Source: an uncultured Oscillospiraceae bacterium
GTDB lineage: Bacteria > Bacillota > Clostridia > Oscillospirales > Oscillospiraceae
Direction of reading: 5' to 3'
Length of the DNA stretch: 34,678 bases
Assembly: GCA_944385125.1 (NCBI GenBank)
Contig: CALWVZ010000016.1
Coordinates: 1 to 34,678, forward strand
Shown here: piece by piece, positions 29,015 to 34,678 of the stretch
How the letters are laid out: every line of letters begins with the position of its first letter
Numbering within the stretch: the stretch's first letter is position 1
Notes under the pieces: model-generated
Seen by the model: the letters and a program-made list of their open reading frames with translations, nothing else
The model's database searches: none
What the model was told of the DNA's origin: nothing
Translations under genes and position numbers: made by a program

Positions 29015-30655
29015 ATGAGTACTTTAAAGAAAAACCAGATATACACCGTCTCCATTGACGGCTATGGCTCTCAGGCCCAGGGTGTCTGCCATATAGACGG
29101 CAGAGCCGTATTCGTGCCCAGAGCCCTGCCCGGCGAGAGCTGGGAAATAAAAATACTGAAGGTCACCAACACCGCAGTTTATGCCAGGGGCGAGAAGCTG
29201 CTGCTCCCTTCTCCTCATCGCCGGGAGTCTGACTGTCCCTGGTTCGGGGTCTGCGGCGGCTGCGACTGCCGGCACATGAGTTACGAAGAGGAGCTGCGTT
29301 TTAAGCTGCAGCGGGTGAACGACGCTCTGGAACATATCGGCAGACAGAGCCTGAGAGCCCGGCGCATCATCGGCAGCGAAAACATCAGCCGCTATCGGAA
29401 CAAGGGCATCTTTGCCTTTGCTCCCGGTGAAGGCGGGGCGCAGTTTGGCTTCTATAGGGAGCGGAGCCACCAGCTGATCCCCATTGACCGCTGCCTTATC
29501 CAGAACGAGCTCACCGAGCGCTGCGCCGCCGCAGTGGCCGCCTTCATGAACAGCCGGGGCATCCCTGCCTATGATGAGGAGAGCGGCCGGGGCACGGTGC
29601 GCCATGTGTTCTGCCGCCGGGCTGTGAACACTGGAGACTCCGTAGCCTGCATCGTTGCCGCCCGGGGCTTCGGCGGCTGTACCCAGGAGCTGACAGAAGA
29701 GCTGAGACGCTCCTGCCCTGAACTCACCGGCATAGTGCTGAACATCAACAAGAGCCGGGGCAACACCGTACTGGCCGGAGACTTCCACACCCTTTGGGGC
29801 CGGGCGGACATGGAGGACATCCTCTGCTCCTTCCGCTTCAGCATCTCTCCCCAGGCCTTTTTCCAGATAAACCCGCCCCAGGCCCAGCGCCTTTACGAGC
29901 TGGCCCTGGACTACGCCTGCCCGGAGAGGGTGGGCCTGGCCTTCGACCTGTACTGCGGGGCCGGTACCATCAGTCTGTGTCTGGCCCGCCGGGCAGACAA
30001 GGTCATAGGTGCGGAGATAGTGCCGGAGGCGGTGGAAAACGCCGCCGTCAACGCCGCCGCCAACGGGGTTGAAAATACGGAGTTCATTTGCGGCGACGCA
30101 GGCCAGGCGGCCCGGGAGTTGGAGAGCCGTGGGCTGAGGCCGGAGGTAGTGGTGGTAGACCCGCCCAGAAAGGGCATGGATGAAAAGGCCGTGGAGGCCG
30201 TGGCTGCAATGGGCCCGGAGCGGATAATCTATGTCTCCTGCGGCCCTGCCACCCTGGCCCGGGATATTTTGCGCTTCAATGCCCTGGGCTATGAGCTGCG
30301 CTCCGCCGCCGCCGTGGACATGTTCCCCCGTACTTGCCACGTGGAGACGGTTGTCTTGCTTTCCAAGGGAGAAATCGACTCGAAAAAGGTTCGTGTGGAG
30401 TTCTCGTTGGAGGATATGGATATGTCTGGATTCCAGAAAGGTGCGACCTATGAACAGATTAAGGCTTATGTGCTGGAGAAGTTTGAATTGAAGGTATCGT
30501 CTCTGTATATCTCCCAGATCAAGCGGAAATGCGGTCTGGATGTAGGGCAGAACTATAATTTGTCGAAGAAAGAAAACGCCAAAGTGCCAAAATGCCCGCC
30601 AGAAAAGGAAGCAGCGATTATGGATGCACTGAAATATTTCCAGATGATAATGTAG
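29015..30655 (+). CDS. rumA: 23S rRNA (uracil-5)-methyltransferase, RumA/RlmD-like, with replaced 3' end
   Basis: 546 residues, versus about 430-460 for typical members. N-terminal TRAM domain (about 1-62), iron-sulfur cysteines in CPWFGVCGGCDC (about 74-85), then the SAM-binding domain with FDLYCGAGTISLCLA near 310, VVDPPRKGMDEKAVE near 382 and the nucleophile motif VSCGPATLARD near 408. The methylase homology ends at PRTCHVETVVLLSK near 438-451. The last ~95 residues (from GEIDSKKVRVEF to YFQMIM) are extra, AT-richer, and contain YEQIKAYVLEKF and SSLYISQIKRKCGL, a tail I associate with mobile-element-borne endings in Clostridia. No clear ribosome site precedes the ATG. The gene symbol is by family. 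Confidence 0.88.
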   Translation: MSTLKKNQIYTVSIDGYGSQAQGVCHIDGRAVFVPRALPGESWEIKILKVTNTAVYARGEKLLLPSPHRRESDCPWFGVCGGCDCRHMSYEEELRFKLQRVNDALEHIGRQSLRARRIIGSENISRYRNKGIFAFAPGEGGAQFGFYRERSHQLIPIDRCLIQNELTERCAAAVAAFMNSRGIPAYDEESGRGTVRHVFCRRAVNTGDSVACIVAARGFGGCTQELTEELRRSCPELTGIVLNINKSRGNTVLAGDFHTLWGRADMEDILCSFRFSISPQAFFQINPPQAQRLYELALDYACPERVGLAFDLYCGAGTISLCLARRADKVIGAEIVPEAVENAAVNAAANGVENTEFICGDAGQAARELESRGLRPEVVVVDPPRKGMDEKAVEAVAAMGPERIIYVSCGPATLARDILRFNALGYELRSAAAVDMFPRTCHVETVVLLSKGEIDSKKVRVEFSLEDMDMSGFQKGATYEQIKAYVLEKFELKVSSLYISQIKRKCGLDVGQNYNLSKKENAKVPKCPPEKEAAIMDALKYFQMIM

Positions 30656-30660
30656 TATTT

Positions 30661-30695
30661 GAAATGGTCAGGATTATATAAGTCCTGGCCATTTC
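30661..30695 (+). terminator. Hairpin after the rumA-like gene
   Basis: GAAATGGTCAGGA (30661-30673) pairs with TCCTGGCCATTTC (30683-30695), 13 pairs with one G-U, six bases after the stop. No T-run follows. Confidence 0.55.
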
Positions 30696-30710
30696 GAGGT
30701 CAAACCTTCG

Positions 30711-30739
30711 TTGAAATCATCACGGATTCGTGATATGCT
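30711..30739 (+). promoter_or_regulatory. Promoter of the regulator gene with embedded operator-like palindrome
   Basis: TTGAAA (30711-30716), 17 bases, TATGCT (30734-30739). The spacer contains ATCACG-GATT-CGTGAT (30719-30734), a perfect 6-base dyad placed where a bound repressor would exclude RNA polymerase. Confidence 0.65.
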
Positions 30740-30781
30740 TATCTATAATTTATACGTTGTTAAAAACCGTGGAGGGCATCT

Positions 30782-30994
30782 ATGGCTGTACAATACAATA
30801 AGTTGTTTAAGATGCTGATCGACCGAAAAATGAGCAACAATCAATTGGCGAAGCAGGCAGGAATTAGCCTGAACATTATTACTCGTTTAAAGCGGGATGA
30901 ATACATTGCAATGCAAACTATTGAGAAAATCTGCATTGCTTTGGACTGTGGTGTGGATGACATTCTCGAATTTATCTCGGAGTCTCAGAAATGA
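30782..30994 (+). CDS. Small Cro/CI-type (XRE) transcriptional regulator
   Basis: 70 residues, almost only a helix-turn-helix: KLFKMLIDRKMSNNQLAKQAGISLNIITRLKRDEYIAMQTIEKICIALDCGVDDILEF. This is the compact YozG-type group common on mobile elements and at the head of restriction-modification operons, where it delays or limits nuclease expression. GGAGGGC stands just before the ATG. A palindrome inside its promoter suggests it represses itself and the two genes behind it. The gap to the next start is about 30 bases, so all three are probably one transcript. Confidence 0.88.
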   Translation: MAVQYNKLFKMLIDRKMSNNQLAKQAGISLNIITRLKRDEYIAMQTIEKICIALDCGVDDILEFISESQK

Positions 30995-31024
30995 GCTATC
31001 ATTATGGCAGAGGGGAGGTTTATC

Positions 31025-31984
31025 GTGCAGTTTGAAGAAAAGCTGGATGTGATTGAGGAAGATATTGTCCAATACAGCCAAGAATTGCTTAATATCCTCC
31101 TGAAGGATAGAACAACAAAAGAGAATATTATCTGGGCAACCAGTGACTATATCTCGCATGGGGAGCTATATGCAGCGACAGAGCAAATCTACGCAAGCCT
31201 GATCGCTGGCGTTCATTCTAAGCTGATTCAGCCTCGTGTAGCAAAGGCGCATGAGCAAAAAAACAGTCGCACCAGAGACAAGGCGGAAGTGTTTACCCCT
31301 TCCTGGATCTGCAATGCCCAAAATAACTTGGTGGACGAGCATTGGTTTGGTCGGCCTAATGTGTTTAATATCCCGCAAGACAACACCTGGACGGCAACGG
31401 AACGAATCGTATTTCCTGAGGATAAGCAGCATACCTGGAAGCATTATGTGGATGCACGGAGAATTGAGATTTCCTGCGGCGAGGCTCCTTATCTGGTAAG
31501 TCGCTATGATACAGTAACCGGTGACCCCATTGAACTTCTCTCCCGGATCGGTTTACTGGATCGCAAGCTACGGGTTGTGACCGAAAATGCCTCCGACGAA
31601 AGTGAATGGTTGAAATGGGCGTATCGAGCTTACGAAAGTATTTACGGCTTTGAGTTCCAGGGCGATAACTTATTGCTTGCACGGGAAAATTTGCTGTATA
31701 CTTTTATTGACTACATGCGGTATGCGCTAAAGCGTACTCCGACGCTCAATGAGCTAAAAAGGGTGGCCACCATCATTTCCTGGAATTTGTGGCAGATGGA
31801 TGGCCTCACATACGGGCCGCCGCTTTGCGATATTCAAGAAGAAATGAATCAGCTATCAATATTTGATTTTATTGAATCTGAGTTCCTGACTGCTCAAAAG
31901 CCTGCAAAGTCTCGGTGCAAAATCAAGGATTGGCGATCCAAAGTGATCGTGGAATACTACTCTTTGGTGAAGGGGGAACGATAA
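31025..31984 (+). CDS. Restriction-associated methyltransferase-like protein (degenerate motifs)
   Basis: 319 residues from GTG at 31025, chosen because AGGGGAGG ends six bases upstream; an in-frame ATG at 31004 has no ribosome site. It resembles proteins annotated as restriction endonuclease subunit M. AEVFTPSWICNAQNN (about 87-101) resembles the motif X region of N6-adenine methylases, and EISCGEAPYLVSRYD (about 148-162) sits where motif I (DPxCGSG) is expected. GDNLLLARENLL and IISWNLWQMDG follow where AxNLLL and NPPY/F would be, but no NPPY/F is present. It may therefore bind DNA or cofactor without methylating, or the missing motifs may come from its partner. Its stop overlaps the helicase start (TAATG). 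Confidence 0.72.
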   Translation: MQFEEKLDVIEEDIVQYSQELLNILLKDRTTKENIIWATSDYISHGELYAATEQIYASLIAGVHSKLIQPRVAKAHEQKNSRTRDKAEVFTPSWICNAQNNLVDEHWFGRPNVFNIPQDNTWTATERIVFPEDKQHTWKHYVDARRIEISCGEAPYLVSRYDTVTGDPIELLSRIGLLDRKLRVVTENASDESEWLKWAYRAYESIYGFEFQGDNLLLARENLLYTFIDYMRYALKRTPTLNELKRVATIISWNLWQMDGLTYGPPLCDIQEEMNQLSIFDFIESEFLTAQKPAKSRCKIKDWRSKVIVEYYSLVKGER

Positions 31985-34678
31985 TGGAAACCGTATTTGG
32001 AACTTCTTTTGAGTACAAATTGATTTATGTTTTTGCCATCAATGACGAGGCTCATAAAGGGCTTTTGAAAATTGGTGATACGACGATCCAGTCAGACGCT
32101 TCCATTGATGCCCTGTTCCCCAACTGTAAAGCTCTGAATCAGGCGGCGCTGAGCCGGATTAAGCAGTACACGAATACAGCGGGTATTTCTGCCCAGCTGC
32201 TACATACCGAGTTGGCCGTCCGTCTTGTTAGAGGCAAGGGTGGACAGCAGGTATTGAAAGCTTTCCGGGACCACGACGTCCACCGTGTGCTTGAAAACTC
32301 CGGCATTCCCAAGAAGAAGCTGAAAAACTCCACCAGCAGAGAATGGTTCGAGGTGGAGCTGTCCACCGTTCTGAAAGCGATCGAAGCGGTGAAAAAATGC
32401 CAGTCTAACCTGTCCGGCATGGGTGCAGGTACAGGATTTACTCCCATTGTGTTCCGCCCGGAGCAGGAAGAAGCCATCGAGAAAACGCTGAAGCAGTTCA
32501 AAACGGGAAGCCGAATGCTCTGGAACGCAAAGATGCGTTTCGGCAAAACCCTCTCTGCCCTTCAGGTGGTTAAGAAGGCTGGCTTTGCCAAGACCATTAT
32601 TGTTACTCACCGCCCTGTGGTGGACGATGGCTGGTATGAGGATTTTCAGAAGATCTTTTATGATACCGATGATTATACCTACGGCTCCAAGGGCCACGGG
32701 GCTGCCATCGAAGGTCTGCTTAATAGCGGCAAAAAGTTCGTCTATTTTGCCTCCATTCAGGATCTGCGTGGTTCTTCTACCGTTGGCGGTAAATTCGATA
32801 AGAACGATGCTGTGTTCTCTCTGGACTGGGATCTGGTCATCGTGGATGAGGCCCATGAAGGAACCACCACCGCCTTGGGTGATGATGTCATTAAAAATCT
32901 GGTAAAGGAAGGAAACGGCTACGATACCAAGTTCCTTGCCCTGTCTGGTACTCCCTTCAACATTCTCAAGGAATTCGACGATAACATCTACACCTGGGAC
33001 TATGTGATGGAGCAGCAACGCAAAGCGCAGTGGGACAAGCTGCACTTTGGCGATTCCAACCCCTACGACGAGCTGCCGGAGCTGAAAATCTATACCTACG
33101 ATCTGGGAAAAATCCTCACCGATAAAAGCTATGTGGAGTTGGAGGATAAGGCGTTCAATTTCCGGGAGTTTTTCCGTGTCTGGACTGGTGATATCAAACA
33201 CGACCACAAGGCCATGCCAGCTACTGCACAGGTGGGCGATTTTGTCCACGAAAGCGATGTTTGGAGCTTTTTGAACCTGATTGCAAAAGACGACCCGAAC
33301 AGCCACTATCCTTATGCCAACGAGGAATACCGCAACCTGTTCCGCCATGCCCTCTGGATGGTTCCCGGCGTCAAAGAGGCTAAGGCCCTGAGCAAGCTGA
33401 TGAAGAAACACCCGGTCTTTGGCTGTGGTGCATTTGATATTGTCAATGTTGCTGGTGACGGCGACGAAGAGGAACGCTCCGAAGATGCGCTCCAGAAGGT
33501 GCGACAAGCCATCAACAGTGCCGGAAACGATGGTTACACTATTACTCTTTCCTGCGGTAAGCTGACCACCGGCGTCACGGTGCCGGAGTGGACGGCTGTG
33601 TTTATGCTGGCCGGATCGTTCTCCACTTCTGCCGCCAACTATCTGCAAACCATCTTCCGGGTACAGTCGCCCTGCAACAAAGACGGTAAGATTAAACGCA
33701 ACTGTTATGTGTTTGACTTTGCCCCCGACCGTACCTTGAAAATGGTAGCGGAATCTGCGGCCCTGTCTACCAAAGCAGGCAAGGCCAATGAATCTGACCG
33801 CCGAATCATGGGTGAGTTTTTGAACTATTGCCCGGTGATTGCGGTGGATGGCACGGTGATGAAAGCCTATGACACCAATCGCCTGCTCCAGCAGCTGAAG
33901 CGGGCTTATGCGGAACGGGCCGTACAGAACGGTTTTGATGACACCAATCTATATAACGATGAGTTACTGCGCCTGGAAGAACTTGATATCGAGAAGTTCA
34001 ATAAACTAAAGAAGATTGTCGGCACATCCAAAGTGGCTCCCAAGGCCAAGGAGATCGACATCAACGCCCAAGGCTTTACCGATGAAGAATACGAAGAACT
34101 GGGGCGGATTGAGAAAAAGCCCAAGCGGGAGCGCACAGCGGATGAAGAAAAGCGCTTGCAGGAGATGAAGGAAAAGCAGAAGCTCAAAAATAATGCGATT
34201 TCCATCCTGCGGGGTATTTCCATCCGTATGCCGCTGCTAATTTACGGCGCTGATATTCCCATTGACGAGGATATTACCATGGAAAAACTGGTGGACATCG
34301 TGGATGATTCCTCCTGGGAGGAATTTATGCCCTCCGGTGTCACCAAAGAGATGTTTAAAAGTTTTATCAAATACTATGACCCGGAAATCTTTGTGGCTGC
34401 TGGTCGCCGGATTCGCACCACGGTTCTCAGTGCCGATGAGCTTTCCCCCATGGAGCGGGTCAAGAAAATCGCACAGCTGTTTGCCTGCTTCAAAAACCCG
34501 GACAAGGAAACGGTTTTGACCCCATGGCGGGTAGTGAATATGCACATGAGCGACTGTCTGGGCGGCTATGACTTCTACGATGAAGCTCACGAGCAGATAG
34601 TAGAGGAGCCCCGTTTTGTGGATCGTGGCAAAGTGACCGCAGACACCTTTGCAAATGCCGGTGCCCGCGTGCTGGAGA
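31984..34678 (+). CDS. GIY-YIG-like nuclease plus SF2 helicase, restriction-type, truncated by window end
   Basis: At least 898 residues, open to the edge. N-terminus (about 12-40): YKLIYVFAIND then GLLKIGDTT, the spacing and letters of a GIY-YIG/T5orf172-type nuclease. An SF2 helicase follows: Walker A with KMRFGKT at 183-189, DEAH at 288-291, SGTPF at 321-325, TTGVTVPEW at 528-536, and QTIFR (motif VI) at 555-559. After about residue 590 is a charged, partly coiled-coil region, then TPWRVVNMHMSDCLGGYDF near 846-864, resembling the start of an Eco57I-like methylase segment that would lie past the window. It starts on the stop codon of the methyltransferase-like gene, so the two products are probably made in fixed proportion as one complex. 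Confidence 0.85.
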   Translation, partial: METVFGTSFEYKLIYVFAINDEAHKGLLKIGDTTIQSDASIDALFPNCKALNQAALSRIKQYTNTAGISAQLLHTELAVRLVRGKGGQQVLKAFRDHDVHRVLENSGIPKKKLKNSTSREWFEVELSTVLKAIEAVKKCQSNLSGMGAGTGFTPIVFRPEQEEAIEKTLKQFKTGSRMLWNAKMRFGKTLSALQVVKKAGFAKTIIVTHRPVVDDGWYEDFQKIFYDTDDYTYGSKGHGAAIEGLLNSGKKFVYFASIQDLRGSSTVGGKFDKNDAVFSLDWDLVIVDEAHEGTTTALGDDVIKNLVKEGNGYDTKFLALSGTPFNILKEFDDNIYTWDYVMEQQRKAQWDKLHFGDSNPYDELPELKIYTYDLGKILTDKSYVELEDKAFNFREFFRVWTGDIKHDHKAMPATAQVGDFVHESDVWSFLNLIAKDDPNSHYPYANEEYRNLFRHALWMVPGVKEAKALSKLMKKHPVFGCGAFDIVNVAGDGDEEERSEDALQKVRQAINSAGNDGYTITLSCGKLTTGVTVPEWTAVFMLAGSFSTSAANYLQTIFRVQSPCNKDGKIKRNCYVFDFAPDRTLKMVAESAALSTKAGKANESDRRIMGEFLNYCPVIAVDGTVMKAYDTNRLLQQLKRAYAERAVQNGFDDTNLYNDELLRLEELDIEKFNKLKKIVGTSKVAPKAKEIDINAQGFTDEEYEELGRIEKKPKRERTADEEKRLQEMKEKQKLKNNAISILRGISIRMPLLIYGADIPIDEDITMEKLVDIVDDSSWEEFMPSGVTKEMFKSFIKYYDPEIFVAAGRRIRTTVLSADELSPMERVKKIAQLFACFKNPDKETVLTPWRVVNMHMSDCLGGYDFYDEAHEQIVEEPRFVDRGKVTADTFANAGARVLE

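Follow-up and report, generated by a model that had tools for sequence, protein, structure and literature searches.

The window analysed here, the whole of contig CALWVZ010000016.1 (G000:C16; 34,678 nucleotides) in the 2.0-Mb, 86-contig draft genome of an uncultured Oscillospiraceae bacterium, carries at its right end a gene for an XRE-type regulator, an open reading frame (ORF) of 326 amino acid residues (aa), and a large gene of which 898 codons are present before the assembly cuts it at the contig end. We propose that these genes probably form a three-gene, ATP-dependent, type-ISP-like restriction-modification system in which an active methylase is put together in trans from the small protein, N, and the C-terminal part of the large protein, C. 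A putative degenerate copy of N, here called psiN, is likewise carried by the large protein. An earlier note, made from the letters of the window, had described an XRE regulator, a methyltransferase-like protein and a GIY-YIG/helicase protein. This anatomy is real: Pfam recognises HTH_26, T5orf172 and ResIII, and the arrangement is not chance, as relatives repeat the same order. The features are as follows.

30782..30994, + strand: XRE/Cro-type helix-turn-helix (HTH) protein of 70 aa, a probable operon regulator, accessory (Pfam HTH_26, E = 1.3e-18)
31025..31984, + strand: N, putative S-adenosylmethionine (SAM)-binding half of a gamma-class adenine methyltransferase, ending before motif IV (PADLOC; alignment)
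31286..31300, + strand: motif X of N, EVFTP, residues 95–99 (E, V, T and P invariant in a 14-row alignment)
31466..31492, + strand: motif I of N, EISCGEAPY, the putative SAM-binding loop (C-G-E-A-P-Y invariant in 14/14 rows)
31643..31654, + strand: motif II of N, YGFE, with the acid after the second strand (E or D in 14/14 rows)
31781..31801, + strand: motif III region of N, WNLWQMD (alignment)
31982..31986, + strand: TAATG, the stop/start overlap of N and the large gene (sequence)
31984..34678, + strand: large gene, 898 codons, cut by the contig end, encoding GIY-YIG nuclease, SF2 helicase, coupler and the start of psiN (ORF, Pfam, comparison with locus L044)
32020..32391, + strand: T5orf172/GIY-YIG nuclease domain with Y15, K29-x-G31, R58 and E120 (Pfam PF10544, E = 8e-5, residues 28–136)
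32446..33957, + strand: SF2 helicase/translocase with RFGKT, DEAH, SGTP and QTIFRVQ (Pfam ResIII, E = 1e-13, residues 156–325; extent by homology)
34384..34677, + strand: first part of psiN, with motif X, VLTPWRVV, at 34513–34536; the window ends inside motif I (alignment with L023, L024, L025 and L027)

In the proposed mechanism, N would bind SAM, and C, the last quarter of the large protein, would supply the NPPY catalytic motif and a target-recognition domain. The two would complete one Rossmann methyltransferase fold, neither working alone, and would methylate the host’s recognition sites, so protecting the host. The SF2 motor and the GIY-YIG nuclease would translocate on, and cut, DNA with an unmethylated site, guided by the same recognition half; psiN would pair with C without cofactor in what is probably the site-reading, cutting form. 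The XRE protein would regulate the operon. What carries the proposal is the anatomy of the locus, the complementarity of its motifs, the conserved linkage of its genes and four patterns of gene fusion; from these we infer the assembly of N with C in trans in the window type, methylation, restriction and the role of psiN.

N matches no family in Pfam or NCBIfam, and its profile has no match among PDB sequences at E ≤ 1. PADLOC assigns it to MTase_II PDLC03390 over nearly its whole length (E = 8e-113), a label under which half an enzyme passes for a complete methylase. N aligns with the N-terminal ~310 residues of fused methylases of 646–663 aa. In the 14-row alignment, whose rows were obtained with whole proteins or large-protein patterns and not with N motifs, motif X reads VFTP in most rows and motif II reads YG[YF][ED]; the WNLWQMD region we take to be motif III from the usual order of the motifs. 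NPPY is absent from the window’s N, as the earlier note had seen, and from N throughout the alignment. By its motifs X, I, II and III, N is predicted to be the cofactor-binding half of a gamma-type adenine methyltransferase. The gamma-class order X, I, II, III and IV (NPPY) within one fold is found in natural N–C fusions and in N and C taken together, and in neither half alone. Since motifs X to III are kept, a decayed methylase is ruled out and the earlier word “degenerate” does not apply to N, which would lack NPPY because it is half a methyltransferase. In the class sample N is present in 11 of 291 genomes, the source genome included. A wide scan confirmed at least 572 relatives, of which 80 were kept; by their titles these come from two archaeal genera and from several phyla of bacteria. 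Plasmids and IMG/VR contigs carry relatives as well.

The earlier note had supposed that the missing catalytic motif might be at the C-terminal end of the helicase protein, beyond the window; relatives do have it there. Locus L044, of Anaeromassilibacillus sp. An200, has 92.2% DNA identity to the window over 29945–34678 and encodes the whole large protein, of 1336 aa: GIY-YIG, SF2 helicase, psiN, and then C, the NPPY and target-recognition half. The window breaks off inside a stretch that reads VLEINSKTGLY in L044; some 110 residues later comes GNPPY, within MKFDAVVGNPPYQ, followed by a target-recognition-like C-terminus. The large proteins of L023 (77% identical, 1325 aa), L024 and L027 likewise end in the NPPY half, and Pfam finds Eco57I at residues 941–1088 of the L023 protein (E = 2.4e-30). 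In these four loci methylation and cleavage are, as had been suggested, unusually spread over two polypeptides. By plain text search, NPPY is present in 84 of 87 C halves. When the rest of the large gene was looked for in the window’s own genome, only the 25 residues already in the window came up. A large gene that is a pseudogene beyond the window, a case the earlier note had raised, is rejected for the family, as the gene is complete in these four relatives; the window’s own end lies beyond the contig. The nuclease-translocase looks active by its residues: among 86 aligned rows, Y15, G31 and E120 of the GIY-YIG domain are present in all and K29 and R58 in 85, and the helicase motifs RFGK, DE.H, SGTP and Q..FR (motif VI) are near-invariant. 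In L046, L053, L064, L098, L101, L115 and L130 the large gene is in two ORFs, split inside the helicase or between the helicase and psiN-C; a frameshift, phase variation or an assembly error is possible in these cases.

Four modules, with the GIY-YIG-helicase part written H, occur in four fusion patterns: N|C|H-psiN (type A), N-C|H-psiN (type B), N|H-psiN-C (type C, the window type) and N|psiN-C|H (type D). In type A (L015, L016, L019) the gene after N encodes a protein of 337–357 aa that starts MKFDxxIGNPPYQ. In type B (L017, L018, L020, L021, L022) N and C form one protein of 646–663 aa with NPPY near residue 320. In L013, L023, L024 and L027 the NPPY half closes the helicase protein and starts at the same point as the type A C half. 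The direct fusion of N to C in type B, the adjacent halves of type A and the shared starting point of C in type C all support N plus C as one methylase. Type D, found through the large protein, has a short distant N type, n, followed by psiN-C and a GIY-YIG-helicase gene in L173 and L175, and the same arrangement with an internal stop in L174. In the type D psiN-C proteins L173 4014–5561 and L175 3576–5138, the stretch from the degenerate motif II to NPPY contains an insert with CxxC that resembles a zinc finger.

Each pattern contains one N, one psiN and one C. Since C is found fused to N, fused to psiN or free, it should, by the Rosetta-stone argument, contact both. The loci classed number 127 (the 80 kept from the wide scan, the viral loci and loci of other sample searches, some of them copies), as follows: 64 type C, 10 type B, 16 type A or broken, 12 cut by a contig end or partial, 23 with N only and 2 with N and C, under a mechanical rule that puts L135 in B, with N and C in two ORFs (A in the tree), and L025 in C, with the small half downstream. 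Five loci that are copies (L150, L068, L125, L087 and L096; same contig or equal domain scores) were left out of the motif counts. A tree of 83 helicase domains, made by a quick method and with long branches between D and C2, places C1 (the window’s group), C2 and D each on one side of a branch; A and B are intermixed, the well-supported branches requiring at least four changes for A and at least five for B. Two loci are likely to be decaying: L014 5843–6826, with an N half alone, and L078 7998–10680, with N and then a 570-aa ORF keeping psiN only; no C half was found nearby in either.

The large protein, used as query, leads back to N. It matched in 17 of 341 and 7 of 398 genomes (the source genome included), giving 23 loci besides the window’s own. 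All 17 loci whose context was read (two in G332 and one each in G042, G266, G206, G251, G117, G290, G275, G058, G065, G328, G518, G527, G531, G555 and G409) have an N-type half, fused or as a protein of its own, whose motifs are intact. The other six comprise three at a contig edge (G254, G183, G207) and three outside the set that was read (G108, G558 and the weak match G240). Three further loci from the viral search have the N-type half in each case. Among plasmid records, 85 had a match, and eight were opened, picked among 20 listed. All eight carry a half of 226–282 aa that shows FTP or LTP, YG[IF]E and a motif I rich in glycine but lacks NPPY; seven are of the distant n type. It adjoins the large gene in seven; in L188 it lies two genes off, and the large gene there looks broken. 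The records name these proteins “N-6 DNA methylase”, “methylase”, “restriction endonuclease”, “DNA methyltransferase” or “hypothetical protein”.

Some IMG/VR contigs, found through N, show the pair well apart. G729 and G731 encode large proteins of 1813–1927 aa, with NPPY and, as read by eye, a lysine loop, ~164 and ~70 kb away from N; in G733 a partly matched 1796-aa frame lies ~79 kb from N. These large proteins, with GIY-YIG, helicase and NPPY, are at L199 4034–9814 (G731), L201 2778–8216 (G729) and G733:C1:141711–145964. With N and the large protein 70–164 kb apart, their pairing is more than operon hitchhiking. Searches of IMG/VR records matched C in 4 of 15 and the phage large protein in 5 of 9; neither matched in G727, G728, G730 and G732, whose records may be fragments. 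L137, L139, L142, L143, L145 and L147 are IMG/VR contigs (23–248 kb) with a lone N half, C not being found in the possibly fragmentary record; a phage of this kind could in principle use the host’s C half.

The earlier note saw neither the conserved degenerate cofactor-half copy in the helicase protein nor the four fusion patterns. Helicase proteins of types A and B end in ~170 N-like residues, in which motif X is for the most part retained, with LYMKSG(L/M)Y standing at motif I and YG(L/M)APT at motif II. In the window type psiN sits between the helicase and NPPY, with EINSKTGLYPLY and CKTPMAK at these positions. The psiN alignment has 86 rows (60 type C, 24 A/B and 2 D) that were not selected by N motifs. 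A lysine replaces the first motif I glycine in 86/86 rows, the second glycine is kept in 85/86, and, by eye, no row has an acid at the motif II position. N thus keeps motifs I and II intact, whereas psiN has the lysine and no acid, and NPPY is in C; these complementary motifs support N plus C as the methylase. A lysine so strictly conserved speaks for a working pseudo-half and not a decay product, and it may fill the cofactor pocket. Kinship of psiN with N is seen through the short n type, with profile probabilities of 99.4% for N–n, 98% for n–psiD, 91% for n–psiAB, 81.5% for n–psiC2 and 99.8% for psiC1–psiC2; direct hhalign matches are weak (N–psiN 0.5–10%, n–psiC1 0.6%, psiAB–psiC1 7%).

AlphaFold2 models of a natural N-C fusion (L021; pLDDT 89.8, pTM 0.86) and of psiN-C from L044 (pLDDT 85.5, pTM 0.84) are confident in each case and show the strands expected of a whole methyltransferase sheet; NPPY stands where the opening strand of C ends. 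In Foldseek, psiN-C comes nearest to CamA (E = 1.5e-16, TM 0.54), with BrxX/PglX, BpuSI, M.BseCI and M.TaqI also matched. For N-C the best match by E-value is LlaBIII (3.7e-8, with a TM of only 0.30); PglX, LlaGI and DrdV also match (TM range 0.30–0.42), and BpuSI and M.TaqI are likewise among the matches. N-C and psiN-C thus both look able to complete the methyltransferase fold. By the model and the structure matches, the target-recognition region appears to lie in C. No hsdS gene like that of type I systems was obvious, by eye and with no HsdS profile run, among the ORFs adjoining L044.

Several points weigh against our proposal. Motifs I and II are near-invariant in the 103 N rows of the wide scan, a result partly built in, as the scan patterns were the motif I and motif II peptides themselves. 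The homology of the window’s psiN class, psiC1, to N appears to be indirect, through the chain N–n–psiC2–psiC1. The psiN-C unit has a complete predicted fold and a full-profile Pfam Eco57I match; since it is contiguous and predicted to fold whole, N would have to displace psiN or act otherwise. A mirror-tree comparison of N, psiN, C and helicase in 30 type C1 loci (L047 left out besides the five copies) gives r = 0.90 for psiN–helicase, 0.40 for N–helicase and 0.37 for N–psiN, and no support for N–C, with a partial r given the helicase of 0.14 (all C) and 0.00 (C core). The correlations of C with N, psiN and helicase are only 0.23–0.25, which suggests that C has often been exchanged between lineages, at the junction before NPPY, as a specificity cassette would be. 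Finally, the DnmA-YeeB-YeeC cluster of Bacillus subtilis is the nearest studied relative by its parts, on description and not on sequence. It sets an adenine methylase beside an SF2 helicase and a T5orf172/GIY-YIG protein, DnmA being MmeI-like and methylating GACGAG, and in B. subtilis three phages were unaffected by it (PMC9973331). In that cluster the three activities are on three proteins; the present locus has nuclease and helicase on one chain and a methylase divided within its fold. The same source cites deletions of homologues in Vibrio crassostreae as raising sensitivity to some phages (PMC9973331).

By the models, either N-C or psiN-C may form in the window’s complex. It is tempting to suggest, tentatively, that both form in turn, by a partner-exchange switch. 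C would complete its fold either with N, as a SAM-binding writer, or with psiN, as a cofactor-free reader tied to the motor and nuclease, the invariant lysine of psiN sitting in the SAM pocket. Writer and cutter would then share one recognition domain and be mutually exclusive, since both partners would use the same beta-strand edge, and the fusions would tie C permanently to N in type B and to psiN in types C and D, type A leaving it tied to neither.

Rather doubtful, to our mind, is a writer dimer with one live and one dead cofactor half, in the manner of METTL3-METTL14 or the dimeric Mod of type III systems. N-C would catalyse and psiN would be a structural dock for the motor, with no exchange of partners. 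The single N, psiN and C of every pattern would suit such a dimer, as would the strict conservation of psiN where decay might be expected; but types C and D join psiN directly to C, and in type C psiN is predicted to complete the fold, which in a simple dock model would leave N without a free partner.

We consider it improbable that psiN-C alone is the active methyltransferase, its lysine loop still binding SAM, with N as an accessory that regulates, doubles the activity or methylates the other strand via a second C. The contiguity of psiN-C in types C and D, its predicted single fold, the Eco57I match in L023 and the motif X text pattern, present in 65 of 78 psiN rows, are what one would then expect. 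They are met by the lysine at the first glycine in every psiN row and the missing motif II acid, by type B, which joins N to C exactly where a methyltransferase would continue, and by the N-type half with intact motifs at all 17 readable loci that were found without using N.

A methylation-free defence set, with the GIY-YIG helicase acting by itself beside relic N and C halves, is very improbable: the phage result with the related B. subtilis cluster would suit it, but the SAM-site and NPPY motifs of the two halves are conserved in the relatives read, plasmids and phage contigs included. Of the “split or methylation-free anti-phage system” of the earlier note, the split is well supported and the methylation-free part is not.

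Our preferred reading, a methylase assembled from N and C, can be set beside known systems. The gamma adenine methyltransferases CamA, M.BseCI, BpuSI, PglX/BrxX and M.TaqI share the fold of psiN-C and are single-chain methylase domains with their own SAM site. In type III systems the Mod and Res subunits keep their domains undivided, whereas here the methyltransferase is divided over two genes before motif IV. The layout is, as the earlier note had said, not that of textbook type I, type III, DISARM or BREX, and no PADLOC family (DISARM, BREX and other systems) was matched at E ≤ 1 by the 898 residues of the large protein that the window encodes. Closest in domain order are the type ISP enzymes LlaGI and LlaBIII, with nuclease, SF2 motor, gamma methyltransferase and target recognition in the order seen in L044 and L023, where the in-chain cofactor half is degenerate. 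PMC3874165 describes the type ISP enzymes as single-chain fusions with an Mrr nuclease. They differ from the window type in having all activities on one chain, where here the SAM-binding half is a separate gene, the nuclease is T5orf172/GIY-YIG and the in-chain copy of the SAM half has a lysine in its cofactor loop. Methyltransferases made naturally of two polypeptides are known in M.AquI and M.EcoHK31I (PMC3404938). Like N plus C, these are assembled from two chains, but they are cytosine-C5 enzymes, split after motif VIII, and the passages on them describe no helicase, nuclease or second dead half (PMC3404938). In open-access literature, judged by title and the start of the abstract among the best 7–20 of up to 508 matches, no split adenine methylase system like this one was recognised.

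A restriction-modification system must never let cutting outrun self-marking. A methylase divided inside its fold, with a motor-nuclease carrying a degenerate copy of one half, would physically couple or oppose writing and cutting. For annotation, the plasmid proteins called “restriction endonuclease”, “methylase” or “hypothetical protein” would be half enzymes, and proteins with an “Eco57I methylase domain” and a lysine loop may need a partner.

Some details of the gene layout follow. The N ORF runs from an ATG at 31004 to 31984 (326 aa) or from a GTG at 31025 (319 aa); the GTG, preceded by GAGGGGAGG, a good ribosome-binding sequence, is the likelier start. The TAATG overlap given in the earlier note is confirmed: the large-gene ATG is at 31984, and its A is the last A of the N stop codon. 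In 53 of 59 type C loci compared, the start codon of the large gene lies at most 30 bases from the end of N, by a measure that took the start codon nearest that end and is therefore biased toward small distances. The other six gaps exceed 30 bases, and at least some belong to loci with fragmented ORFs. An XRE homologue lies less than 700 bases upstream of N in 19 of the 59 loci, and an E. faecium plasmid locus also has an HTH gene upstream.

Adjoining the module at 29015–30655 is a gene that is presumably rRNA-methyltransferase-like, with a 91-residue C-terminal tail that is single-copy in the window’s genome. Similarity of the window to L044 starts at 29945, inside this gene, and similarity to L045 at 30443, which suggests that its 3′ end is an integration or recombination site.

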